Positions 19,573-31,500 of a stretch of DNA of 36,895 nucleotides are shown piece by piece. The stretch spans positions 1 to 36,895 of the forward strand of contig JAEUKZ010000092.1 in NCBI GenBank assembly GCA_016793045.1, in the 5' to 3' direction. Each line of letters opens with the position of its first letter. Positions within the stretch are counted from its first letter, which is position 1. A model generated the notes under the pieces. That model worked only from the letters and a program-made list of their open reading frames with translations, did not search any database and had not been told where the DNA came from. The position numbers and the translations under genes were made by a program. Source of the stretch: Alphaproteobacteria bacterium (lineage in GTDB: Bacteria > Pseudomonadota > Alphaproteobacteria > CACIAM-22H2).

Positions 19573-19808
19573 GCGGGCCCGGCGCCGGCACGCCCGACGC
19601 TGAGGACGATCGCGAGATCGACGTGCGCGAGGCGATCATCGAGATGGTGATCGCCTCGCTGCGCCGCTGGGAGGGGTTGGCCGTGACCCGCGAATCGCTT
19701 CGCGCCGACGCGTCCCATCGCGCCGCCTTCGTGCGCGTGCTGCGCGAGTGCCGGCCGCTGCCGATCGTCAAGGCGATCGAGGCCGACGCGCTCGCCAACG
19801 CTCTGTGA
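19569..19808 (+). CDS. 79-aa protein of unknown function in the TRAP/alcohol dehydrogenase operon
   Basis: I do not recognise this protein. It is small, acidic at the N-terminus (PDAEDDREIDVREAI), then probably helical (IIEMVIASLRRWEGL), ending DALANAL, with no signal or membrane segment. It begins with ATGA overlapping the DctP stop, and its own TGA is followed 32 bp later by the next gene's start. The tight coupling and normal codon bias argue that it is real. It could be an accessory subunit or a small regulator of the neighbouring dehydrogenase, but nothing in the sequence shows this. Confidence 0.65.
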   Translation: MSGPGAGTPDAEDDREIDVREAIIEMVIASLRRWEGLAVTRESLRADASHRAAFVRVLRECRPLPIVKAIEADALANAL

Positions 19809-19840
19809 CGCATCCGACATCCGTTTTCGAGGTATCGACC

Positions 19841-20995
19841 GTGCATCCCTTCACGTTCCTGCATTCGACCCGCCGCGTGATCTTTGCGCCTGGGGCGCTC
19901 GACCGGCTTGCCGACCTGGCGAAGGAGCACGGCGTTCAGCGGCCGGCCGTGGTGCTCGACGGCTACTTCGCGACGCAGCCGCTGCGCGACCGCCTGGTCG
20001 CGCTGCTCGGACCGGCGACGCGCGTCCATCCGGTGCCGCAGCAGGAGCCGGACCTGCGCATTGTCGAGTCCTGCCGGGCGTTCCTCGCCGCCGAGCCGTT
20101 CGACATGCTGGTCGCGGTCGGCGGCGGTTCGGCGATGGACGCCGCCAAGGTCGCGCGGATGCTGGTGTCGAATCCCGGCGAGGCCAGCGCGATCGCCGGG
20201 CCCGTCGGCGTCAGGATGCGGCCGCATGCCTCGCTGCTGGTCTGCGTCCCGACGACCGCCGGCACTGGCAGCGAGGTTTCGGAATCCTCCGTGATCGCGG
20301 CGCTCGACGGGAGCTACAAGCTTATCTTCCGTTCCGCCGAGATGACCGCGTCGATCGCGCTCCTCGACCCGACGCTCACGACCAGCGCCCCTGCGGGCGT
20401 CACCGCCGCTTCCGGCTACGATGCGGTCACCCACGCCGTCGAGGCGTTCACCGCCAAGACCGCCAATCCGATGACCGATCCGATCGCGCTCGCGGCGATG
20501 GAGAGCCTCGCGCGCCACCTGCCGATCGCCCATGCGGAGCCCGGCAACGTGGAGGCGCGCGGCGCCTGCCTTGTCGCCTCGATGCAGGCGGCGATCGCGT
20601 TCAATTCGGCGAATCTCGGGATCGCGCACGCGATCTCGGGCGCGCTCGGCGCGCTGCACCATGTCGGGCACGGGTTGGCGAACGCGCTGGCACTGCCCTG
20701 GACGATGGCGTTCAATCAGCCGGCGCTCGGCGCCAAGGGCGAAACGATCGCGCGCATCTTCGGAGGGCGAAGCGCAGCCGAGGGCCTGTCGAAGCTGCGC
20801 CACCGCGTCGGCCTCGACATCGCCCTCGATCGCGTCCTGCCCGCCGGGGCGGACTACGACGCGATCGCCGCCGGGTCGATGAAATCCGGCCAGGTGCGCG
20901 TCAATCCGCGCACGCCGACCGTCGCCGACATGCGTGCCATCCTCGAAGCGATGCGCCGGCCGACCGGCGGGACCCAGCCCGAACTGGGCCTCTGA
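19841..20995 (+). CDS. Iron-containing (group III) alcohol dehydrogenase
   Basis: Predicted 384-aa NAD(P)-dependent dehydrogenase of the Fe-ADH family. Cofactor motifs are VGGGSAMDAAK (GGGS at 94-97) and PTTAGTGSEV; the iron ligands are D194 and H198 (YDAVTHAVEAF), H263 (AHAIS) and H277 (GHGLANA). The motifs fit alcohol or lactaldehyde dehydrogenases; maleylacetate reductases have different residues at both cofactor motifs. I chose GTG 19841 (GAGGT 7 nt before) over GTG 19805, which overlaps the preceding stop but has no ribosome site. Last gene of the GntR-GGT-TRAP operon, it probably oxidises an alcohol released from, or reduces an aldehyde derived from, the imported compound. Its stop is 6 bp from the convergent diiron gene. 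Confidence 0.9.
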   Translation: MHPFTFLHSTRRVIFAPGALDRLADLAKEHGVQRPAVVLDGYFATQPLRDRLVALLGPATRVHPVPQQEPDLRIVESCRAFLAAEPFDMLVAVGGGSAMDAAKVARMLVSNPGEASAIAGPVGVRMRPHASLLVCVPTTAGTGSEVSESSVIAALDGSYKLIFRSAEMTASIALLDPTLTTSAPAGVTAASGYDAVTHAVEAFTAKTANPMTDPIALAAMESLARHLPIAHAEPGNVEARGACLVASMQAAIAFNSANLGIAHAISGALGALHHVGHGLANALALPWTMAFNQPALGAKGETIARIFGGRSAAEGLSKLRHRVGLDIALDRVLPAGADYDAIAAGSMKSGQVRVNPRTPTVADMRAILEAMRRPTGGTQPELGL

Positions 20996-21994: not shown

Positions 21995-22795
21995 ATGACG
22001 CCAAAGACTTCGTCCAGCCGCGCCGCGCGGCTCGACCGCGCCTCGGCGCTGCCGCTGTTCGCGCAGCTCAAGCAGTGGCTGCTCGCCGAGATCGCCGGCT
22101 GGCCCGATCCGGCACGCCGCTTCCACACCGAGGCCGAAATCGCCGCCCGCTTCTCGGTCAGCCGCCATACCGTGCGCCGCGCCATCGCCGACCTCGTGCG
22201 CGCCGGACTGCTCGCGCGCTCCCGCGGCGCCGGAAGCCACGTGCAGCAGCCGCGGCTGGCGGAAACGATCGACTCGCGGATGGACGTGCGCGGCGACTGG
22301 CGCGCGCTTGGCGTCGCGATGGCCATCCGCGTGCTTGACTTCGCACGTCAGGCGGCCGGGCCGGCGTTCGCGGCCGAACTCGGCGTCGCGCCGGGTGCGG
22401 AGATCCGCGCGATCCGCCGCCTGCGGCTCGTCGCCGGCGTTCCGGTGGCGCTCGACGAGCGCATCCTGCCGCTCGACGTCGCGGCACGCGCGAAGCTGAC
22501 GCGGCGATCGGCGGCAGGGTCGATCATCGACGCGCTGCGCCGCGCAGGCTTGACCGCGTCGGCGGAATGGCACATCGACGCGGTGCGTGCCGATGCGGAG
22601 GAGCAGGCGATCCTTCAAATCGACGCGGGCGCCCCGCTGCTGGTGCGCCGCATGCGCTATCTCGACCAGAACGGGCGCTGCATCCTCGCCGGCCGGTCGA
22701 TCCATCGTGGCGACCTGATGAGCTTCGTCGTGCGCCTGCCGCTCGATCGCGATCTCGGCAATCGCGTCGACTGGTTCACCCGGCAGCGCGGCTGA
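21995..22795 (+). CDS. GntR family regulator, HutC/UTRA type
   Basis: One-component regulator of 266 aa. The winged helix-turn-helix is at about residues 18-85 (PLFAQLKQWLLAEI, FHTEAEIAARFSVSRHTVRRA, DLVRAGLLARSRGAGSHV; segments split). The ligand-binding UTRA domain follows (IRAIRRLRLVAGVPVALDE, LPLDV, AILQIDAGAPLLVRRMRY). UTRA proteins sense metabolites such as urocanate, sugars or phosphonates. Divergent from the diiron gene with only 54 bp between them, it most likely represses that gene and itself. The ribosome site is weak. The C-terminus converges on the intradiol dioxygenase gene. Confidence 0.92.
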   Translation: MTPKTSSSRAARLDRASALPLFAQLKQWLLAEIAGWPDPARRFHTEAEIAARFSVSRHTVRRAIADLVRAGLLARSRGAGSHVQQPRLAETIDSRMDVRGDWRALGVAMAIRVLDFARQAAGPAFAAELGVAPGAEIRAIRRLRLVAGVPVALDERILPLDVAARAKLTRRSAAGSIIDALRRAGLTASAEWHIDAVRADAEEQAILQIDAGAPLLVRRMRYLDQNGRCILAGRSIHRGDLMSFVVRLPLDRDLGNRVDWFTRQRG

Positions 22796-22849: not shown

Positions 22850-23749
22850 CTAGGCGAGCGTCGCCGCCGGATCGGCGCCGACGCGTCCGCCCCGCCGATC
22901 CGCCTCCGACTCGCGCGAAACCGTGAAGTCGAAGCGGATGCTCGGAAGACCCTTGATCGGGCATTCGGGGTCGTTCTGCTTGATCTGGGCGACCAGATCG
23001 GCCGACGCGCCGAAAACGACGTCGTCATGCAGGTGGGGGTCGCCGGAAAGATAGAGCGCCGTCACCAGCTCGCGATAGCCGACCGCGCCGATCAGGAAGT
23101 GAATATGCGCCGGCCGCATTCCGTGGCGCCCTTGCGCGCGGACCATGTCCCACACCGGTCCGTCCATGGGAATGTAGTAGCCGAGCGGCCGGACGCTCTT
23201 GAGGACATATGACCCGTCGGCCGCGGTGACGAACGAACCGCGGTAGTCGTTCCTCTCGGGCGTCACCTGCATGTCGTAGCTGCCATTGGCCGCGGTCTGC
23301 CAGACCGTCACCATCGCGTTCGCGATCGGCGCGCCGTCGACGTTCGTCACGCGCCCCCACAGGACGATCTCGCCGGTGGAGACGTCGCTGCCGATCTGCG
23401 CGCCGCGTTCCATCACCGGCGTGTTCTCGCGGAAGAAAGGCCCGAGCAGGCTGGTGTGCGTGGCATCCTCGAGCGCGGTGGTGTCGTGCAGCGTGTTGAC
23501 GAGCGTGGACAGCCCGAGCGTGTCCGACAGCAGGATGAATTCCTGGCGCGAGGCCGAGCACATGTGGCCGACGCGCGTGAGGAACTGGATGCCGAATATC
23601 CATTCGGCGGGGGTGAGGTTGACCTCGCGCGCGAAGGCATGGAGATGGCGGACGGCGCTCTCCATGATCGTCTTGAGGCGCGGGTCCGTCGTCGTCGACA
23701 TCTGCTCGATCGTCGCGGCCGTGATGTTGTCAGGCGTGTACTCGATCAT
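22850..23749 (-). CDS. Intradiol ring-cleavage dioxygenase, hydroxyquinol 1,2-dioxygenase-like
   Basis: Non-haem Fe(III) enzyme of 299 aa that would open an ortho-dihydroxy aromatic ring between the hydroxyls. The N-terminal dimerisation/lipid-binding domain (about 20-95, LTPAEWIFGIQFLTRVG, RQEFILLSDTLG) is followed by the catalytic sandwich. The iron ligands are Y158 (NGSYDMQ), Y191 (PLGYYIP), H215 and H217 (RPAHIHFLI), the same 33-24-2 spacing as known hydroxyquinol 1,2-dioxygenases. Catechol or a substituted catechol remains possible. SD AGGGAGG is 9 nt before the ATG. Its own promoter and operator sit between it and the end of the IclR gene. No gene for maleylacetate or muconate processing lies beside it, so the next step is encoded elsewhere. 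Confidence 0.92.
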   Translation of the reverse strand: MIEYTPDNITAATIEQMSTTTDPRLKTIMESAVRHLHAFAREVNLTPAEWIFGIQFLTRVGHMCSASRQEFILLSDTLGLSTLVNTLHDTTALEDATHTSLLGPFFRENTPVMERGAQIGSDVSTGEIVLWGRVTNVDGAPIANAMVTVWQTAANGSYDMQVTPERNDYRGSFVTAADGSYVLKSVRPLGYYIPMDGPVWDMVRAQGRHGMRPAHIHFLIGAVGYRELVTALYLSGDPHLHDDVVFGASADLVAQIKQNDPECPIKGLPSIRFDFTVSRESEADRRGGRVGADPAATLA

Positions 23750-23796: not shown

Positions 23797-23824
23797 GTTT
23801 TCGCTTGGCGAAGAAATTTTCGCT
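23797..23824 (-). promoter_or_regulatory. Three-half-site IclR operator of the dioxygenase gene
   Basis: Read on the minus strand, AGCGAAA, then CTTCGC (inverted), then GCGAAA occur at fixed spacing. The same order and spacing recur at 24762-24789 on the plus strand, with only the spacer bases differing. This three-repeat architecture is that described for PcaU/PobR-type IclR regulators, and an IclR gene lies between the two copies. The first base is 34 bp downstream of the first base of a perfect TTGACA. Confidence 0.72.
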
Positions 23825-23829
23825 GTCCT

Positions 23830-23858
23830 ATGGTGCGAAGCGCGCCCCGGCTTGTCAA
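23830..23858 (-). promoter_or_regulatory. Candidate promoter of the dioxygenase gene
   Basis: A perfect -35 TTGACA (plus 23853-23858) is followed after 17 bp by CACCAT (plus 23830-23835). The TGA inside TTGACA is the stop codon of the IclR gene. The -10 match is weak, consistent with a need for activation. Predicted transcription starts at the edge of the operator. Confidence 0.5.
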
Positions 23859-24733
23859 GATTGGCGGCGGCCCGCCGGGCGCGCGAGGACGCGGCGCGGC
23901 GGCTCGGCCGCCGCCGCGCGGCCGGTCGGGAACGAGTGGTACAGCGCCGGATAGCGTTGCAGCATCTGCGCGATGCGCCGCGACGCGGTGCGCAGCTCGT
24001 CGAGTCGCTGTTCGACCAGGTTCTCGATGCTCAACCGCCCCGTGTAGCCGGACGAGTTCACCGCCGCCACGACCTCTCCATGCAGCCCGTGAATCGGCAC
24101 GGCGAGCGATGTCACACCGTAGGCGAGCTGATCGACGGCGGTCGCGTAGCCGAGTTCGCGCGCGGTCGTGATGAGCCTGCGCAGCTGCGCGCGGTCGGTG
24201 CACGTGGCCCCGGTGAGTTTGTCCAGCTTTGCGGCGGCGAGGTAACGGTCGAGCGCATCGGGCGGGAGCCCCGCGAGCAGCACGCGCCCGAGCGACGTCG
24301 CATGCGCGGGATAGGTGACGCCGATGCGCGCCATCGGGCGGACGCCGCGCTGCTCGGACACGTGAGCGACGTAGAGGACGTCGTCGCCGGTCAGCACCGC
24401 GACCGAGGCTGCATCGCCGAAAAGGCCGACGATCCTGCGCAGCTCCGGCATAAGCGCATCGTCGACATGAGCGGCCCGGAGATAGCCGGAGCCCAACGCG
24501 AGGACGCGCGCACTGAGCAGAAATTGGTTCTCCACCTTGCGCAGGTAACCGAGCGTCGCCAGCGTATGGAGGTTGCGCCGCGCGGTCGCCGGCGTGAGGT
24601 TCGCGCGCCGCGCGACTTCGCTCAGCGAGAGCTGCGGATGCGCCTCGTCGAAGCACTCGATTACCGCCAATCCGCGCGCCAAGGCATCGACGAACTCCTT
24701 GTCCTTCGCCGCCGCCTGTCGGTCCCTTGACAT
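23855..24733 (-). CDS. IclR family regulator (PcaR/PcaU/PobR-like)
   Basis: One-component regulator of 292 aa. The helix-turn-helix lies at about residues 15-75 (FVDALARGLAVIECF, LSLSEVARRANLTPATARRNL, LATLGYL), and the ligand domain follows with VAVLTGDDVLYVAHV, ARIGVTYPAHATSLGRVLLA and the late SLAVPIHGLHGEVVAAVN. The opening resembles the protocatechuate-pathway subgroup. ATG 24733 is chosen because SRDRQAAAKDKEF is a normal N-terminus and GGGGG lies a few bases before it. Operators with the same three-half-site design lie before the dioxygenase gene and before the lyase gene, the latter covering the likely iclR promoter, so it should control both units and itself. The ligand is probably an aromatic acid or ring-cleavage product. 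Confidence 0.92.
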   Translation of the reverse strand: MSRDRQAAAKDKEFVDALARGLAVIECFDEAHPQLSLSEVARRANLTPATARRNLHTLATLGYLRKVENQFLLSARVLALGSGYLRAAHVDDALMPELRRIVGLFGDAASVAVLTGDDVLYVAHVSEQRGVRPMARIGVTYPAHATSLGRVLLAGLPPDALDRYLAAAKLDKLTGATCTDRAQLRRLITTARELGYATAVDQLAYGVTSLAVPIHGLHGEVVAAVNSSGYTGRLSIENLVEQRLDELRTASRRIAQMLQRYPALYHSFPTGRAAAAEPPRRVLARPAGRRQS

Positions 24734-24754
24734 CGTCCCCCGCTCTGGTAGTTT
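24727..24754 (+). promoter_or_regulatory. Candidate promoter of the lyase/CoA-transferase/Liv operon
   Basis: A perfect TTGACA (24727-24732) overlaps the IclR start codon on the opposite strand. After 16 bp comes TAGTTT (24749-24754, 3 of 6). As at the dioxygenase promoter, the -10 is poor and the operator begins 35 bp after the start of TTGACA. Confidence 0.45.
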
Positions 24755-24761
24755 TTCTAAG

Positions 24762-24789
24762 AGCGAAATATACTTCGCTAGGCGAAATA
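24762..24789 (+). promoter_or_regulatory. Three-half-site IclR operator of the lyase/Liv operon and iclR
   Basis: AGCGAAA (24762-24768), CTTCGC (24773-24778, inverted) and GCGAAA (24782-24787) repeat the arrangement at 23797-23824. On the minus strand the same stretch contains a TATATT box (plus 24767-24772) and the 17-bp spacer up to TTGTGT (plus 24790-24795), the probable iclR promoter. Binding here would therefore block iclR while acting on the rightward operon. Confidence 0.75.
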
Positions 24790-24795
24790 ACACAA
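24767..24795 (-). promoter_or_regulatory. Candidate iclR promoter
   Basis: Minus-strand TTGTGT (plus 24790-24795) and TATATT (plus 24767-24772, 5 of 6) are 17 bp apart, about 35 bp before the IclR ATG. The -10 and spacer are fully inside the three-half-site operator, which predicts autorepression. Confidence 0.5.
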
Positions 24796-24813
24796 TAGGG
24801 AGGCGTGGCGCCA

Positions 24814-25623
24814 GTGAAGATCGGGCCGGGCAGCGATCCCAGATCGGCCATCAGCGCCGCCAACGCCGACGCGATCGTCGTCCGTGGCTTCGACCTTTGC
24901 GCCGACCTGATCGGCGCGGTGTCGTTGACCGACCATTTCTTTCTGCTCGTCACTGGCCGCAAGCCCACCGACGGTCAGCGCCGGGTCCTCGATGCGACCC
25001 TGGTCGCGATCGCCGAGCATGGGCTCGTGCCGAGCGTGCAGGCATCGCGCATGACCTACGCCGCCGCGCCGGAGGCATTGCAGGGCGCCGTCGCGGCCGG
25101 AATTCTCGGCTGCGGCTCGGTCATCCTCGGCGCGTCCGAGGCGGCGGGGCTGTTCCTGGTCGACGTGCTCGCCGAAGCCGGTCCCGACGACTCCGCGCTC
25201 GACGCCGCGGCGCGTAGCGTGGTCGGCCGCATGCGCGCGGCCAAGCGCCCGATTCCGGGCTACGGCCATCCGCTCCACAAGCGGCAGGATCCGCGCGTCG
25301 GGCGCCTGCTCCGGGTTGCGGAGGAGGCCGGCATGGCGGGGCGGCACATTCGCGCCGCCATCGCGGTCGAGGGCGTGCTGCCGGCGACCATCGGCAAGGC
25401 GCTGGCCATGAACGTGTCGAGTGCGATCCCGGCCGTGCTGCTCGATGCCGGCTTTCCCGTGCAGGCGCTCAAGGGCGTGCCGATCCTCGCGCGGACCGCG
25501 AGCCTGGTCGCGCACCTGGTCGAGGAGCAGCTTCGACCGATCGGCTTCATCCTCAGCGAGCATGCCGGAAAGGCGATCGCATACGACGGCCCGGCGCCCG
25601 CCGGCTTCGTGCCGACGACGTAG
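24814..25623 (+). CDS. Citryl-CoA lyase / short citrate synthase-like protein
   Basis: Protein of about 269 aa matching only the catalytic core of citrate synthase, the size of citryl-CoA lyases. The three catalytic residues are conserved: H69 (AEHGLVPS), H152 (GYGHPLHK) and D211 (LLDAGFP). Such proteins split, or form, a citryl-CoA-type thioester into acetyl-CoA and an oxo acid. I prefer GTG 24814, with AGGGAGG 10 nt upstream; GTG 24805 (three residues longer) is only 1 nt from that site. It is the first gene of the IclR-controlled operon, 14 bp before a CoA-transferase, suggesting that the transferase makes the CoA thioester and this protein cleaves it. The true substrate is unknown. Confidence 0.85.
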   Translation: MKIGPGSDPRSAISAANADAIVVRGFDLCADLIGAVSLTDHFFLLVTGRKPTDGQRRVLDATLVAIAEHGLVPSVQASRMTYAAAPEALQGAVAAGILGCGSVILGASEAAGLFLVDVLAEAGPDDSALDAAARSVVGRMRAAKRPIPGYGHPLHKRQDPRVGRLLRVAEEAGMAGRHIRAAIAVEGVLPATIGKALAMNVSSAIPAVLLDAGFPVQALKGVPILARTASLVAHLVEEQLRPIGFILSEHAGKAIAYDGPAPAGFVPTT

Positions 25624-25637
25624 GAGGCGAGGGCGCG

Positions 25638-26792
25638 ATGACCAAGGTGCTGACCGGCATCCGCGTAATCGAGATGGGCACGTTCATCACCGGGCCCGCC
25701 GCGGCGATGTTCCTTGCCGATCTCGGCGCGGATGTCGTCAAGGTCGAGCGCCCGGGCAGCGGCGACCCGTTCCGCGCCTTCAAGGGTGGCCTCTACAGCC
25801 CGCACTTCCAGACGTACAACCGCAACAAGCGTTCGATCGCGCTCGACACTGCGAAGCCCGAAGACAAGGCGGTGTTCGACGCGCTGATCGCGTCGGCCGA
25901 CGTCTTCATCCAGAATTTCCGGCCGGGCGTCGCCGAACGGCTCGGCGCCGGCGAGCAGGAGCTTCGCGCGCTCAATCCGCGCCTGGTGTACTGCGCGATC
26001 TCGGGCTTTGGCGACAGCGGACCAGCCAAGGATCGCCCGGCTTTCGACACGGTCGCGCAGGCGGCAAGCGGCTATCTGCGGCTGCTGATTCCGCCGGGCG
26101 ATCCACGGGTCATCGGTCCGGCGATCGCCGACGCGGTGACGGGATTCTATGCGGCGTTCGGCGTCCTCGCGGCGCTGGTCGAACGCCAGCGGACCGCCAA
26201 GGGCCGCCGCGTCGACGTCTCGATGCTCGAGGCGATGTGCCATTTCAACCTCGACTCGTTCACGCATTTCTTCTCGGCGGGCGAGGTCATGACGCCCTAC
26301 AGCCGACCCAGCGTCTCGCAGTCCTATGTGATGCAGTGCGCCGACGGCGCGTGGATCGCGCTGCACCTGTCGTCGCCCGAGAAGTTCTGGACCGGGCTGG
26401 TCGACGCGGTGGAGCGGCCCGAGCTTCTCGCGGACCCGCGCTTCGCGGCCCGGGCGGACCGGATCGCGCACCACGGCGAGCTGATCGCCATCATGACGCC
26501 GATCTTCAAGACCCGCACGCGCGAGGAGTGGTGCCGGCGGCTCGAGGCGCGCGAGGTGCCGCATTCGCCGGCCTACGATTCGAACGAGGCGCTCGACGAT
26601 CCGCAGGCGCGCCATCTCGGCATCCTCGTCGAGGCCGAACACCCGGTCATGGGGCGCTTCCGTACCGTCCGCACGCCGCTGTCCTTCGACGGGCAGCGCA
26701 TCTCGGACGTGACCGCGCCGCCGGTCCTCGACGAACACGGAGCGGAGCTGCGCGCGCAGATCGGCAAGGCGCGCGTGACGGCCGCGCAATAG
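25638..26792 (+). CDS. Class III (CaiB/BaiF) CoA-transferase
   Basis: Predicted cytoplasmic CoA-transferase of 384 aa, the usual family length. Hallmarks are GIRVIEMGTFITGPAAAMFL, LADLGADVVKVERPGSGDP, the NRNKRSIALD segment, and the probable catalytic Asp at D165 (GPAIADAVTG), equivalent to the Asp that forms the acyl anhydride in formyl-CoA transferase. It moves CoA between carboxylic acids, here presumably activating the acid brought in by the Liv-type importer. SD GGAGG lies before ATG 25638. Its position between the lyase-like gene and the importer genes supports a role in a short catabolic route. The CoA donor and acceptor cannot be read from sequence. Confidence 0.93.
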   Translation: MTKVLTGIRVIEMGTFITGPAAAMFLADLGADVVKVERPGSGDPFRAFKGGLYSPHFQTYNRNKRSIALDTAKPEDKAVFDALIASADVFIQNFRPGVAERLGAGEQELRALNPRLVYCAISGFGDSGPAKDRPAFDTVAQAASGYLRLLIPPGDPRVIGPAIADAVTGFYAAFGVLAALVERQRTAKGRRVDVSMLEAMCHFNLDSFTHFFSAGEVMTPYSRPSVSQSYVMQCADGAWIALHLSSPEKFWTGLVDAVERPELLADPRFAARADRIAHHGELIAIMTPIFKTRTREEWCRRLEAREVPHSPAYDSNEALDDPQARHLGILVEAEHPVMGRFRTVRTPLSFDGQRISDVTAPPVLDEHGAELRAQIGKARVTAAQ

Positions 26793-26843: not shown

Positions 26844-26860
26844 CTAGGGAGGAGACAACG

Positions 26861-28126
26861 ATGATATCGCGCAGGCGCTTCAGCAAGATCGCGGCCGGAA
26901 CCGGCCTGGCACTCGCCGCTCCCGCACTCTCGACGTCTTCATTGGCCCAGGCGCAGCCGATCAAGATCGGCACGAGCATCTCGCTCACCGGGCCGCTTTC
27001 GGGAACCAAGAACGCGCTGACCGGCTATCAGCTCTGGCGCGACGACGTAAATGCGGCGGGCGGGTTGCTCGGCCGGCCGGTCGAACTGGTCACGTACGAC
27101 GACCAGAGCTCGCCCGCGCAGATTCCGGCCATCTACTCGAAGCTCGTCGACGTCGACCGGGTCGATCTGCTGATCTCGCCCTATGGCGCCGTGCTCTCGG
27201 CGCCGGTCATGCCGTTCGTCAAGCAGCGCGACCTGTTCCTCGTCGGCATGTTCGCGCTCGCGGGCAACGACACGGTGCGGCACGACAAGTACTTCCATGC
27301 CTGCCCATGGGGGCCGAACTCGCAGGTGAACTGGGCGCGCGGCTTCTTCGACCTCGCGCGGGCGGCAGGTTGCACGAAGGTCGCGATCATGTCGGCGGAC
27401 ATCGAATTCGCGAAGATCTCGGCGGCCGGCGGCAAGGCGATTTCCGAGGAATACCGGATGTCGGTCGTCTACGACCAGAGCTATCCGCCAAATCAGACCG
27501 ACTTTTCGGCGATCCTGCGCAACATCCGCGCCGCGCAGCCGGAAGCCGTGTTCGTGTGCTCCTACCCGCCGGACAGCACGGCGCTCATCCGCGGCCTGTC
27601 CGAGGTCGGGATCGGCGACAGCGTGAAGATCTTCGGCGGCTCGATGATCGGCCTGCAGTATGCGTCGCTGCTGGCGAATATCGGGCCCGCGCTCAACGGC
27701 ATCGTCAACCTGCACCTCTACGTGCCGGAACCGACGATGCGCAACCCGGCGATCGACGGCTTCCTGGCGCGCTATGAACCGCTCGCGCGTGCGCAGCAGC
27801 TCGATGCGCTCGGCCATTACGTCCCGCCGTTCTGCTATGCCGCGGGCCAGATCATCGAGGCCGGCGTCAAGGGCGCCAACACCCTCAACCACGCGCAGAT
27901 TTCACGCTATCTGCACGCCAACCCGGTCCAGACGATCGTCGGGCGCGCCACGTTCAACGAGCTTGGCGACTGGACGGAAAAGCGCGTCTTGATGGTCCAG
28001 TTCCGCGGCATCAGGGGCCGCGACGTCGAACAGTTCCGCCAGCCCGGCCGGCAGGTCATACTCGACCCGCCCCCGCTGCGCACCGGCGAACTGGTTGCGC
28101 CATTCGGCGCGGCGCGCTCCGGCTAG
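26861..28126 (+). CDS. Branched-chain amino acid-type ABC importer, periplasmic binding protein (LivK-like)
   Basis: Periplasmic receptor of 421 aa, type I binding-protein fold (Peripla_BP_6). A twin-arginine signal (SRRRFSKIAAG, then LALAAPAL) precedes the mature IKIGTSISLTGPLSG. DDVNAAGGLLGRPVELVTYDD and the late YVPPFCYAAGQIIEAG are family motifs. SD AGGGAGGAG precedes ATG 26861. Liv-type receptors outside the amino-acid group often bind aromatic acids or amides, which fits the regulon here. The gene is bracketed by two intercistronic hairpins, a pattern that usually raises receptor mRNA above the membrane components. Confidence 0.93.
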   Translation: MISRRRFSKIAAGTGLALAAPALSTSSLAQAQPIKIGTSISLTGPLSGTKNALTGYQLWRDDVNAAGGLLGRPVELVTYDDQSSPAQIPAIYSKLVDVDRVDLLISPYGAVLSAPVMPFVKQRDLFLVGMFALAGNDTVRHDKYFHACPWGPNSQVNWARGFFDLARAAGCTKVAIMSADIEFAKISAAGGKAISEEYRMSVVYDQSYPPNQTDFSAILRNIRAAQPEAVFVCSYPPDSTALIRGLSEVGIGDSVKIFGGSMIGLQYASLLANIGPALNGIVNLHLYVPEPTMRNPAIDGFLARYEPLARAQQLDALGHYVPPFCYAAGQIIEAGVKGANTLNHAQISRYLHANPVQTIVGRATFNELGDWTEKRVLMVQFRGIRGRDVEQFRQPGRQVILDPPPLRTGELVAPFGAARSG

Positions 28127-28144
28127 GGCCGGCCGCCCGGGCGA

Positions 28145-28167
28145 AGGCGGGGCCAGTCGCCCCGCCT
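28145..28167 (+). other. Intercistronic hairpin after the Liv-type receptor gene
   Basis: There is a perfect 9-bp stem (28145-28153 with 28159-28167) and a 5-nt loop, starting 18 bp after the receptor stop and 46 bp before the permease start. It has no T tract, so partial termination or 3'-end protection of the receptor message is likely. Confidence 0.5.
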
Positions 28168-28213
28168 CGCCAGCGGGCGCCGCGCCGTGGCAAACGATAC
28201 GCGCGTAGGGACG

Positions 28214-29089
28214 ATGTTCCTCGAGATCCTGATCAATGCGGTGGCGACGGGCCTCCTGCTGGGCAGCATCTACGCGGCGCTGGCGCTCGGGCTGGCGGTG
28301 ACGTTCGGCATCCTTCACATTCCGAACATCGCGCATCCGGTCTTCGTCGTGCTCGGCGCCTATCTCGCGGTGGTCGCCAACGAGCGCGGCTGGGATCCGA
28401 TCCTGGCGGCGCTCGCGGGCGCGCTGCCGTTCTACCTGCTCGGCGCGCTCTTCTACGAGTTCTACGCCCGCGTCTTCGAGCGGCGCGGCGAAGCCGACAC
28501 GATGCAGGCGCTGACGCTGTTCTTCGGGGTCTCGCTCGTGGTCGAAACGGCGCTGGTGCTGAAGTTCGGCACCAACCAGCAGACCGTCGACGTCGACTAT
28601 GTCGGCCAGAGCCTGCGCATCGGGCTGCTCGTCATGCCCTATCGGCTGCTGGTGCCCGCGCTGGTCGCGCCGGTCATGATCCTGACCTTGTGGGCGTATC
28701 TGAAGTTCACATATGCCGGCATCGCCATCCGCGCCGCCGCCCACGACGTGCGCGCGCTGCAGGTCAGCGGCGTCGACCCGCACTGGATCAAGCGCCATGC
28801 CTTCGGGATCGCATCCGTCACCGCGCTCGTCGCCGGCGCGATTCTGGTTATCATCGGACCGGTCGATCCGTTCTCGGGGCGCTTGCAGATCGGCAGGGCA
28901 TTCGCCGTCGTCATCCTCGCAGGGATGGGGGCGGTGCCTGGTACGATCCTCGCTGCGTTCATCATCGGTGTCGCCGAATCGCTCGTCTCGGCGTTCCTCA
29001 ATCCGTCGTGGTCGCCCGGCGTCGCGTTCCTGATCCTCCTCGCCACGCTCGCGCTCAAGCCCCAGGGCCTGTTCGGAGCCTCGCGATGA
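28214..29089 (+). CDS. Liv-type ABC importer permease, LivH-like
   Basis: Inner-membrane subunit of 291 aa. Typical LivH segments are INAVATGLLLGSIYAALALG, LAVTFGILHIPNIAHP, GIAIRAAAHDVRALQVSG and GRLQIGRAFAVVILAGMGAV. I chose ATG 28214, preceded by TAGGGA, over GTG 28187, which lacks a ribosome site. Its stop overlaps the next permease start (ATGA). It works with the LivM-like permease and two ATPases encoded downstream and the receptor upstream. Confidence 0.93.
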   Translation: MFLEILINAVATGLLLGSIYAALALGLAVTFGILHIPNIAHPVFVVLGAYLAVVANERGWDPILAALAGALPFYLLGALFYEFYARVFERRGEADTMQALTLFFGVSLVVETALVLKFGTNQQTVDVDYVGQSLRIGLLVMPYRLLVPALVAPVMILTLWAYLKFTYAGIAIRAAAHDVRALQVSGVDPHWIKRHAFGIASVTALVAGAILVIIGPVDPFSGRLQIGRAFAVVILAGMGAVPGTILAAFIIGVAESLVSAFLNPSWSPGVAFLILLATLALKPQGLFGASR

Positions 29090-30036
29090 AGCGGCAGGAC
29101 GTCGCCTTCGCTGCGGGGGCGATCGTCGTCCTGCTGATGGGCTTCGGCGCCGTGCATGCCGTGGCCAATCCGTACTTCTTCTTTGCCGGATACGTGATCG
29201 TCCAGTACGTCGTCCTGGCGACCGCTTGGAACATCCTCGGCGGCTACGCGGGATACATCAATTTCGGGCCTGCCGCGCTGTACGGGGCCGGCGTCTACAC
29301 CTCCGCGCTGCTGTTGAAGGCGTTCGGCGCACCGCTGGTCGTCAACATCGTCGCGGCGGGCCTCGTCGGCATGGTTCTCGGCCTCATGATGGGCTACCTG
29401 ACCCTGCGCGTTCAGGGAGTCTACTTCGCGATCGCGACCATCGCCCTCGTCATCATGCTGGAGACGGTCGTCCACAACATCGAGTATCTCGGCGGGGCGC
29501 GCGGGCTTGCGCTGATCGCTCCCGAGCCGCCCGCCTGGGCGGTCGGCCGCACGCAGTTCGTGTTTCTCGTCCTTCTCGCCATCGCCGTCATGTCGGTGGC
29601 GCTGGCGCGCTGGATCGAGCGGTCGTGGATCGGGCGGGGGCTGCGCGCGCTGCGCGCCAGCGAGGAGGCGGCGGAATGCGCGGGCGTGGCGACGTTGCGC
29701 CTCAAGCTCGCGGCGTGCGCGGTCAGCGGCGCGCTGCTCGCGGTCGCCGGTGCGCCCTACATCTACTACGCCTCGTATATCGATCCGGGGTCCGCGTTCA
29801 GCCTGACGCTCGGGCTCAACACGATTGCCATGCCGCTGATCGGCGGCACGCGGTCGTGGGCGGGGCCGGTGATCGGCGCCCTGCTGCTCGCGAGCGTGCA
29901 GCAGGCCGCGACCGTGACGATCTCGTCGGAACTGAACGTCCTGATGGTCGGGCTGGCGCTCATCGTCTTCATCGCCGCGGCGCCCGACGGGCTCATCGGC
30001 TTGGCCGAGCGGCTCCGGCGGAAGATGCACGCATGA
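29086..30036 (+). CDS. Liv-type ABC importer permease, LivM-like
   Basis: Inner-membrane subunit of 316 aa. LivM markers are TAWNILGGYAGYINFGPAAL, YGAGVYTSALLL, LRVQGVYFAIATIALV, IGRGLRALRASEEAAECAG and GGTRSWAGPVIGALLL. It starts with an ATGA overlap with the LivH-like gene and ends with an ATGA overlap with the LivG-like gene, so the three are translated together. No fused ATPase domain is present, unlike some LivM proteins. Confidence 0.94.
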   Translation: MKRQDVAFAAGAIVVLLMGFGAVHAVANPYFFFAGYVIVQYVVLATAWNILGGYAGYINFGPAALYGAGVYTSALLLKAFGAPLVVNIVAAGLVGMVLGLMMGYLTLRVQGVYFAIATIALVIMLETVVHNIEYLGGARGLALIAPEPPAWAVGRTQFVFLVLLAIAVMSVALARWIERSWIGRGLRALRASEEAAECAGVATLRLKLAACAVSGALLAVAGAPYIYYASYIDPGSAFSLTLGLNTIAMPLIGGTRSWAGPVIGALLLASVQQAATVTISSELNVLMVGLALIVFIAAAPDGLIGLAERLRRKMHA

Positions 30037-30758
30037 GCGAGCCCGTCCTCGCGGTCAGGGATCTCACGAAGAGCTTTGGCGCGCTCAGGGCCCTCGGCCC
30101 GGTCAGCTTCGCTCTGCGGGGCGGCGAGCGGCTGGGGCTCATCGGTCCGAACGGCTCCGGCAAGACGACGCTGATCAACTGCCTGTCCGGCACACTGCGC
30201 GCGGACGACGGGCGGATCTGGTTCGCCGGCCGCGACGTGACGAACGTGCTCGCCTTCAAGCGTGCGCGCATGGGTCTCGCACGGAGCTTCCAGATTCCCA
30301 AGCCGTTCGTCGGCATGACCGTGCTCGAGAACGTGCTGGTGCCGCTGGATCAGATCGGCGACGGATCGGACCATGAGGCCCGCGCGATGGCGATTCTCCG
30401 CTCGGTCAGGCTCGACGCGCGTGCCGGCGACGACGCGAAGCGTCTTTCGCATCTCGAACTGCGCAAGCTCGAACTCGCCCGCGCGCTGGTGGGCGCGCCC
30501 AAGGTTCTGATCGCCGACGAAGCCATGGCCGGGCTCTCGGAACCGGAAATCGACGAAATCCTCGCGATCCTGCAGCGGCTCAGCGAAGCGGGCGTCGCGG
30601 TGATCATGGTGGAGCACATCATGCATGCGGTGATGCGCTTCTCGCAGCGCGTGATCTGCTTCGAGACGGGCCAACTCATTGCCGAAGGGACGCCGCAGGA
30701 GGTCGCGGAAGATCCGCTCGTGCAGAAGGTGTATTTCGGTGAACCGGCTCGTCATTGA
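30033..30758 (+). CDS. Liv-type ABC importer ATPase, LivG-like with altered signature
   Basis: Cytoplasmic ATPase of 241 aa. Walker A GPNGSGKT is intact, as are the Q-loop region ARSFQIPKPFVGMTVLENV and H-loop VEHIMHAVM. The signature, normally LSGGQ or LSYGQ, reads LSHLELRKLELARAL, so the conserved Gly is Leu. Walker B ends ADEAMAGLS rather than DEPAAGL. The DE catalytic pair is kept. Its partner LivF has a standard signature, so one of the two composite ATP sites may be weakened. It overlaps both neighbours: ATGA with the LivM-like gene and 20 bp with the LivF-like gene. Confidence 0.92.
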   Translation: MSEPVLAVRDLTKSFGALRALGPVSFALRGGERLGLIGPNGSGKTTLINCLSGTLRADDGRIWFAGRDVTNVLAFKRARMGLARSFQIPKPFVGMTVLENVLVPLDQIGDGSDHEARAMAILRSVRLDARAGDDAKRLSHLELRKLELARALVGAPKVLIADEAMAGLSEPEIDEILAILQRLSEAGVAVIMVEHIMHAVMRFSQRVICFETGQLIAEGTPQEVAEDPLVQKVYFGEPARH

Positions 30759-31500
30759 AGGGCTGGAAGCGGGCTACGGCGCGGTGTCCGTGCTGCGCGG
30801 CATCTCGATCGAGGTCCGCCAGGGCGAACTCGTGGCGCTGCTTGGCACCAACGGCAACGGCAAGAGCACACTGCTCAACGCGATCCTCGGCTTCGTGCGC
30901 CCGACTGCGGGGCGCGTGGTGCTGGAATGGGACGGCCAGACGATCGACCTCACCGGCGCGCCGCCGCACCGAATCGTGGACGCCGGCATCGCGCTGGTGC
31001 CCGAAGGGCGCCGGCTTGCGCCCAATCTCACCGTCGAGGAGAACCTGCTTCTGGCGGGCAGCGGCCGACGGGCGCGCCGCGACGCGCGGCGGAACCTCGG
31101 ATTCTGCTTCGAGACGTTTCCGATTCTCAAGGAGCGCCGCGCTCAGCGTGCCGCGACGATGAGCGGCGGCCAGCAGCAGATGCTGGCGATCGCGCGCGCA
31201 TTGATGACCTCGCCGCGCATCGTGCTCATCGACGAGCCTTCGCTCGGCCTCGCACCGATCGCGGTAACGCAGGTCATCGCCACGATCCGTTCGCTCCAGG
31301 CGACGCAGAACCTCACCATCGTCATCGCGGAACAGAGCGTCGTGCAGGCGATCGACATCTCGGCCCGGGCCTATGTGCTCGCGCACGGAAGCATCTTGCG
31401 GACCTTCGCGCGCGGCGACTCCGCGGCCGATCTCGACGACATCCGCCGTGCGATGCTGGGCGTCGGGGAGAGCCGGCGGCCGACCGAAGCGGCGCAGTGA
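30739..31500 (+). CDS. Liv-type ABC importer ATPase, LivF-like
   Basis: Cytoplasmic ATPase of 253 aa, last gene of the IclR-controlled importer operon. Walker A GTNGNGKST, signature MSGGQQQML, Walker B IVLIDEPSLGLAP and the switch region IVIAEQSVVQAI are all intact and typical of LivF. GTG 30739 lies inside the end of the LivG-like gene and begins VNRLVIEGLEAGYG, the family's normal N-terminus; an upstream frame extension is spurious. No plus-strand terminator with a T tract is visible after it. Confidence 0.94.
   Translation: MNRLVIEGLEAGYGAVSVLRGISIEVRQGELVALLGTNGNGKSTLLNAILGFVRPTAGRVVLEWDGQTIDLTGAPPHRIVDAGIALVPEGRRLAPNLTVEENLLLAGSGRRARRDARRNLGFCFETFPILKERRAQRAATMSGGQQQMLAIARALMTSPRIVLIDEPSLGLAPIAVTQVIATIRSLQATQNLTIVIAEQSVVQAIDISARAYVLAHGSILRTFARGDSAADLDDIRRAMLGVGESRRPTEAAQ

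Follow-up and report, generated by a model that had tools for sequence, protein, structure and literature searches.

Does one IclR-type regulator govern the catabolic genes on both sides of its own gene, and if so, by which kind of control? The question arose from a 36.9-kb stretch of DNA, the whole of which is here referred to as the window. An earlier reading of the sequence alone had proposed that two matched operators on either side of iclR define a regulon of a dioxygenase gene, a lyase/CoA-transferase/Liv operon and iclR itself.

The regulator and its neighbouring genes

The iclR gene (23855-24733, minus strand) starts with ATG and encodes a protein of 292 aa. Its N-terminal HTH_IclR (PF09339) and C-terminal IclR_C (PF01614) domains scored far above the cut-offs and place it in the IclR family. 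The best-scoring family model was TIGR02431 (pcaR_pcaU; PcaR/PcaU/PobR), but the score of 238.4 bits was below the curated cut-off of 284.75. Moreover, the targets are dioxygenase, lyase, CoA-transferase and Liv genes instead of beta-ketoadipate genes. For both reasons the regulator was filed only as an IclR-family member related to PcaR/PcaU/PobR. The label PcaU/PobR type, as given by the sequence-only reading, holds for the closest model but not for the cut-off, and the operator position described below favours repression over an activator mode. According to the main text of Suvorova and Gelfand 2021 (PMC8222616), the recognition-helix residues of PobR are Arg56, Thr57, Arg60 and Arg61. The corresponding helix of the window protein (TPATARR), judged by eye from the HTH alignment, appeared to keep the Arg-Arg pair and to have Pro-Ala at the positions of Arg56-Thr57. 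A second IclR protein, 44% identical, is encoded in the same genome (G000:C383:35147-35905), and no GCGAAA-type operator was found at its locus.

The left target (22850-23749, minus strand; PF00775, PF04444) is an intradiol dioxygenase of the hydroxyquinol-1,2-dioxygenase type, with the (chloro)hydroxyquinol 1,2-dioxygenases 8r2x, 3n9t and 1tmx as best PDB matches. The right target on the plus strand is a citryl-CoA lyase-like gene (24814-25623; NF004868 above cut-off). Here, the GTG at 24814 was favoured as start over 24805, based on AGGGAGG at 24797-24803 and on orthologues that align from codon 4. The lyase gene is followed by a class III CoA-transferase gene (25638-26792; PF02515) and by Pfam-assigned genes of a Liv-type ABC transporter (26858-31500, plus strand), comprising a substrate-binding protein up to 28126, permeases and two ATPases, with which the operon presumably ends. 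Additionally, a GntR/UTRA regulator gene is located at 21995-22795. The gene at 19748-20995 encodes an iron-containing alcohol dehydrogenase; it may be a maleylacetate reductase, an activity that would suit a hydroxyquinol-type dioxygenase.

Composition of the two operator sites

The motif AGCGAAA-n2-T-n-CTTCGC-nAn-GCGAAA was present in exact copies on either side of iclR, at 23824-23799 on the minus strand (AGCGAAAATTTCTTCGCCAAGCGAAA) and at 24762-24787 on the plus strand (AGCGAAATATACTTCGCTAGGCGAAA), which confirmed the previously reported match of half-sites and spacing. The genome scan that had been suggested as a check was run as well: GCGAAANNNNNTTCGCNNNGCGAAA occurred exactly twice in the 5.34-Mb genome, both times next to iclR. 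No further copy was found in the window, even with three mismatches allowed, and none in 100 dinucleotide shuffles of it. Three genome matches with two mismatches were rejected as additional regulon members because each lay within a long ORF, and an AT-rich match with three mismatches 5' of a histidine-kinase-like gene (L053) was too weak to be counted.

Most relatives carried four alternating boxes, TTTCGCn3GCGAAA-n4-TTTCGCn3GCGAAA, corresponding to two tandem palindromes 19 bp apart. In the window, the right-hand operator (24754-24787, plus strand; TTTCTA-aga-GCGAAA-tata-CTTCGC-tag-GCGAAA) had a decayed box 1 (24754-24759) and intact boxes 2-4, matching 21 of 24 consensus positions. The left-hand operator (23799-23832, minus strand; CATAGG-aca-GCGAAA-attt-CTTCGC-caa-GCGAAA) had lost box 1 and retained boxes 2-4 as the exact three-box copy. 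The three half-sites are therefore what remains of an operator with four boxes. Three boxes had been described, and all three are indeed intact at both sites, but the ancestral form has four and the right-hand remnant TTTCTA had gone unreported. The same decayed TTTCTA box was present in L067 (genome G062). Three-box second sites 3' of iclR, before the next unit, were found in L019-L021.

Promoter elements at the two sites

Of the three TTGACA hexamers in the window, two precede the operators. The -35 box of the lyase operon promoter (24727-24732, plus strand) lies 27 bp before box 1 and overlaps the iclR ATG (24733-24731). In the dioxygenase promoter the -35 box (23858-23853, minus strand) precedes box 1 by 26 bp and includes the stop codon of iclR (23857-23855); its geometry is that of the conserved lyase promoters. 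From the first T of TTGACA to the A of AGCGAAA we counted 35 bp on the right and 34 bp on the left, as noted before. The overlaps with the start and stop codons of iclR are likewise real by coordinates. Since the site is farther from iclR in the relatives examined, they appear to be incidental to this genome.

The likely -10 element of iclR, TATATT (24772-24767, minus strand), would lie under the right-hand operator, 17 bp after a weak -35 element, TTGTGT (24795-24790, minus strand). The earlier claim that this operator covers the iclR promoter thus stands for the -10, while the -35 is weak. A strict promoter scan found no promoter here, including that of iclR, and the -10 elements are weak.

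Conservation of the operators in relatives

IclR orthologues with ~45-56% identity were gathered from genome contigs, whole genomes and plasmids, and every position of each locus was scored against TTTCGCn3GCGAAAn4TTTCGCn3GCGAAA (maximum 24). Twelve further records carried an orthologue of the window IclR or its linked lyase. In the window and in these records (L067, L016, L018-L021, L058, L060, L062, L066, L068, L069) the site upstream of the lyase gene was the best or near-best of the locus, with scores of 17-22 of 24. Absence of the motif in relatives keeping the gene order had been named as the finding that would speak against the proposal; we looked for it and found the motif at the lyase promoter in all 12 records. 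None of 1000 shuffles matched the score of the lyase-promoter site at any promoter. In 11 of 13 loci no background window scored as high, the exceptions being L068 and L069, where the high-scoring windows include the second operator 3' of iclR. Both sites of L068 were also present in L065. The site precedes the start codon of the lyase gene by 11-22 bp in most loci, by 27 bp in the window and by 66 bp in L068/L065.

In eight loci (L016, L018-L021, L058, L060, L064) the distance from TTGAC to box 1 was exactly 28 bp, namely at seven lyase promoters and at the TRAP-transporter unit of L064. The Neorhizobium/Sinorhizobium sites (L059, L061, L063) had TTGAC 21-24 bp upstream, and it was absent from the 28-bp position in L067, L068 and L066. 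No other observation argues as strongly as this fixed spacing for a function of both the -35 box and the operator.

A second site before the unit downstream of iclR was found in the Neorhizobium, Sinorhizobium, Aminobacter, Niveispirillum and Rhodobacteraceae-like loci, and sites on either side of iclR were also present in L059, L061, L063, L064, L065/L068 and L069. The Liv transporter was orthologous (~50-64% identity) in L059, L061 and L063, there with an operator in front, and the CoA-transferase of the window was 67-76% identical to those adjoining the operator in most relatives. In L017, whose IclR is 56% identical, we looked for a tandem palindrome and found none; the lyase, CoA-transferase and dioxygenase genes are absent there too. 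Sites kept beside orthologous genes support the predicted regulon of dioxygenase, lyase/CoA-transferase/Liv operon and iclR, and the comparison as a whole argues that both window sites are functional and probably bound by the regulator. On plasmid pEL101-243 of Agrobacterium deltaense (L062, 7990-10445), an IS66-type insertion separates iclR from the lyase gene and the lyase site remains.

A promoter-operator signature in the class

Promoter and operator were combined into the signature TTGAC-N29-36-CGAA-N6-TTCG-N5-CGAA. Across 385 genomes of the class it had five matches, two in this genome and one each in three others, and all five adjoin an IclR-family gene. In L075 and L076 the IclR gene at the signature adjoins 3-oxoadipate CoA-transferase-like genes, as identified from translated sequence. 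A reversed control pattern also gave five scattered single matches, so that the raw count is not above background and it is the link to IclR that counts. As every match lies beside an IclR gene, the signature is associated with IclR-type regulation. Because TTGAC followed by alternating GCGAAA boxes picked out nothing but IclR-linked sites in the 385 genomes, it offers a way to find the cluster in other genomes. An unannotated aromatic-catabolism cluster thereby becomes a defined regulon with a predictive signature.

Comparison with known IclR systems

The main text of Suvorova and Gelfand (PMC8222616) describes WTT-11-AAW palindromes for IclR regulators; 32 orthologous groups have three-box sites, and 94 have tandem sites with a spacing of 18-22 nt, explained by tetramers. 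Both window sites correspond to the group 1 palindrome with an alternating third box, and they share with the published sites the TTTCGC-N3-GCGAAA palindrome, the second palindrome 19 nt away and the location near gene starts and beside the regulator gene. The 19 nt between centres in the relatives falls within the tandem range; of the window sites, the right one has a decayed outer box and the left one has lost it. A group with this regulator, lyase and CoA-transferase is not named in the main text of that study and may be in its supplement. Three-box and tandem sites and their regulatory logic are already well known, and the window is a new example of them.

PcaU and PobR of Acinetobacter baylyi share with the window protein the IclR family, aromatic catabolism, a palindrome with an external direct half-site and a divergent target operon. 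However, their half-sites are GTTCGAT and GTCCGAT instead of GCGAAA, and they are activators, whereas the window operator lies on -10/+1 and the protein is below the cut-off of the family model. The nearest published palindrome is that of PcaR from Corynebacterium glutamicum (GTTCGC-N3-GCGAAC), which differs in the outer base and in the pathway genes. TtgV of Pseudomonas putida is also an IclR-family protein, but it controls efflux pumps, has low similarity to the window IclR (E 1e-12) and has a different operator sequence. It provides the one IclR-DNA structure (2XRO) cited in the main text of PMC8222616.

Proposed mechanism and alternatives

With a probability of roughly 85%, judged from sequence comparison, the two sites would be operators of the adjacent IclR, each placed within a sigma-70 promoter, at which the protein represses by blocking the polymerase until an inducer relieves it. 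With a -35 box 26-28 bp before box 1 and a spacer of 16-18 bp, the -10 would fall on the border of box 1 and the transcription start inside the operator, which would cover about -10 to +20. Together with the covered -10 of iclR, this makes occlusion-type repression with autoregulation most likely. IclR would probably bind as a dimer of dimers on one DNA face, contacting GCGAAA half-sites that alternate. The ancestral target would have been two palindromes 19 bp apart, of which three good boxes and a remnant are left here. As the operator starts just after the -10 set by the conserved TTGAC, the bound protein would span about -12 to +22 and most likely block the polymerase. The right-hand operator, lying also over the -10 of the divergent iclR, would allow autorepression. 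An aromatic substrate or ring-cleavage product may release IclR, so that the dioxygenase unit, the lyase/CoA-transferase/Liv operon and iclR would be induced together. The sites, their uniqueness in the genome and their conserved positions beside orthologous genes are observed; we infer that IclR binds and represses, in which oligomeric state, with what effector and from which starts the genes are transcribed.

Since IclR proteins can both repress and activate, the regulator might instead be an effector-dependent activator of the catabolic promoters, in the style of PcaU/PobR/PcaR, and a repressor of iclR only. We regard this as rather unlikely, although PcaR/PcaU/PobR is the closest family model, the third box is essential in some members according to the main text of PMC8222616, and the weakness of the -10 elements might call for an activator's help. 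Starting at the -10, the operator runs past the predicted start to 11-27 bp from the lyase start codon (66 bp in one locus pair), and a -35 box that is near consensus and conserved should need no activator. Furthermore, the sites of PobR and PcaU lie upstream of the promoter.

Binding of the sites by another regulator, with iclR merely adjacent, is improbable. The IclR paralogue (G000:C383) with its 44% identity and the GntR-type protein (21995-22795) are the candidates. Against them, the motif follows the window-type iclR across genomes, the locus of the paralogue has no such site, and the promoter-operator matches in the 385 genomes were in five of five cases beside an IclR gene. Even less probable is a function of the palindromes in RNA, as attenuator, terminator or ribosome-site hairpin. 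In favour of it are the closeness of the sites to start codons and a terminator-like call for one half of the left palindrome, read on the opposite strand. On the transcribed strand, however, no T-run accompanies the hairpins, which have 5-6 bp. Conservation extends to the letters of the boxes and not just to their pairing, and the right site lies between two divergent genes, where it overlaps promoter elements. Chance, for which the coincidence of TTGACA with the start and stop codons of iclR could look contrived, is refuted by the genome-wide uniqueness of the motif and the conserved operator and TTGAC spacing.

Apparent exchange of the dioxygenase and a possible catabolic module

In L067 and L018-L021 the dioxygenase gene lies between lyase and iclR, one operator being common to dioxygenase and lyase, whereas in the window it lies beyond iclR with its own operator and -35 box. 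The dioxygenases of these relatives share 76-85% identity, and that of the window is only 33-36% identical to them; in the same comparison iclR is 49-54%, the lyase 48-53% and the CoA-transferase 71-72% identical. Apparently non-orthologous to its counterparts, the window enzyme seems to be newly recruited under a second operator. The simplest reading would be that a different dioxygenase was recruited in this way, with rapid divergence of one dioxygenase as a possible alternative. If so, the regulon would have been rewired by placing a non-orthologous enzyme behind another copy of its operator. The window gene (22850-23749) and its counterpart in L019 (5084-5947) thus encode enzymes of equivalent regulons in an apparent non-orthologous replacement.

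The type of dioxygenase in the regulon varied: hydroxyquinol type in the window, a different intradiol enzyme in several relatives and an extradiol enzyme in Martelella and Sinorhizobium. Elsewhere, the window-type IclR accompanies extradiol dioxygenases and TRAP transporters. In L058, L061, L064 and the window (24814-26792), lyase and class III CoA-transferase recur with IclR, intradiol/extradiol dioxygenases, an amidohydrolase and Liv/TRAP transporters. Tentatively, and with some doubt, these genes may form an undescribed aromatic module of ring-cleavage dioxygenase, CoA-transferase and citryl-CoA-lyase-like enzyme, with dioxygenase and transporter exchanged and IclR and operator fixed. CoA-transferase and lyase together would then cleave a citrate-like ring-fission product. 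In the open literature searched, no description of a ring-fission route with CoA-transferase, citryl-CoA lyase and an IclR regulator was found, which makes it a lead.

Scanning for four boxes in general also turned up L070 (GTTCGT..GCGAAC) and L023 (GTCCGC..GCGGAC), where the half-sites differ but the 19-bp geometry is kept, suggesting that specificity drifts while the geometry stays. The altered half-sites GCGGAC (L023, 313-346), GCGAAC (L070, 5524-5557) and GCGCAA (L066, 11102-11135) form a natural series for IclR operator specificity.
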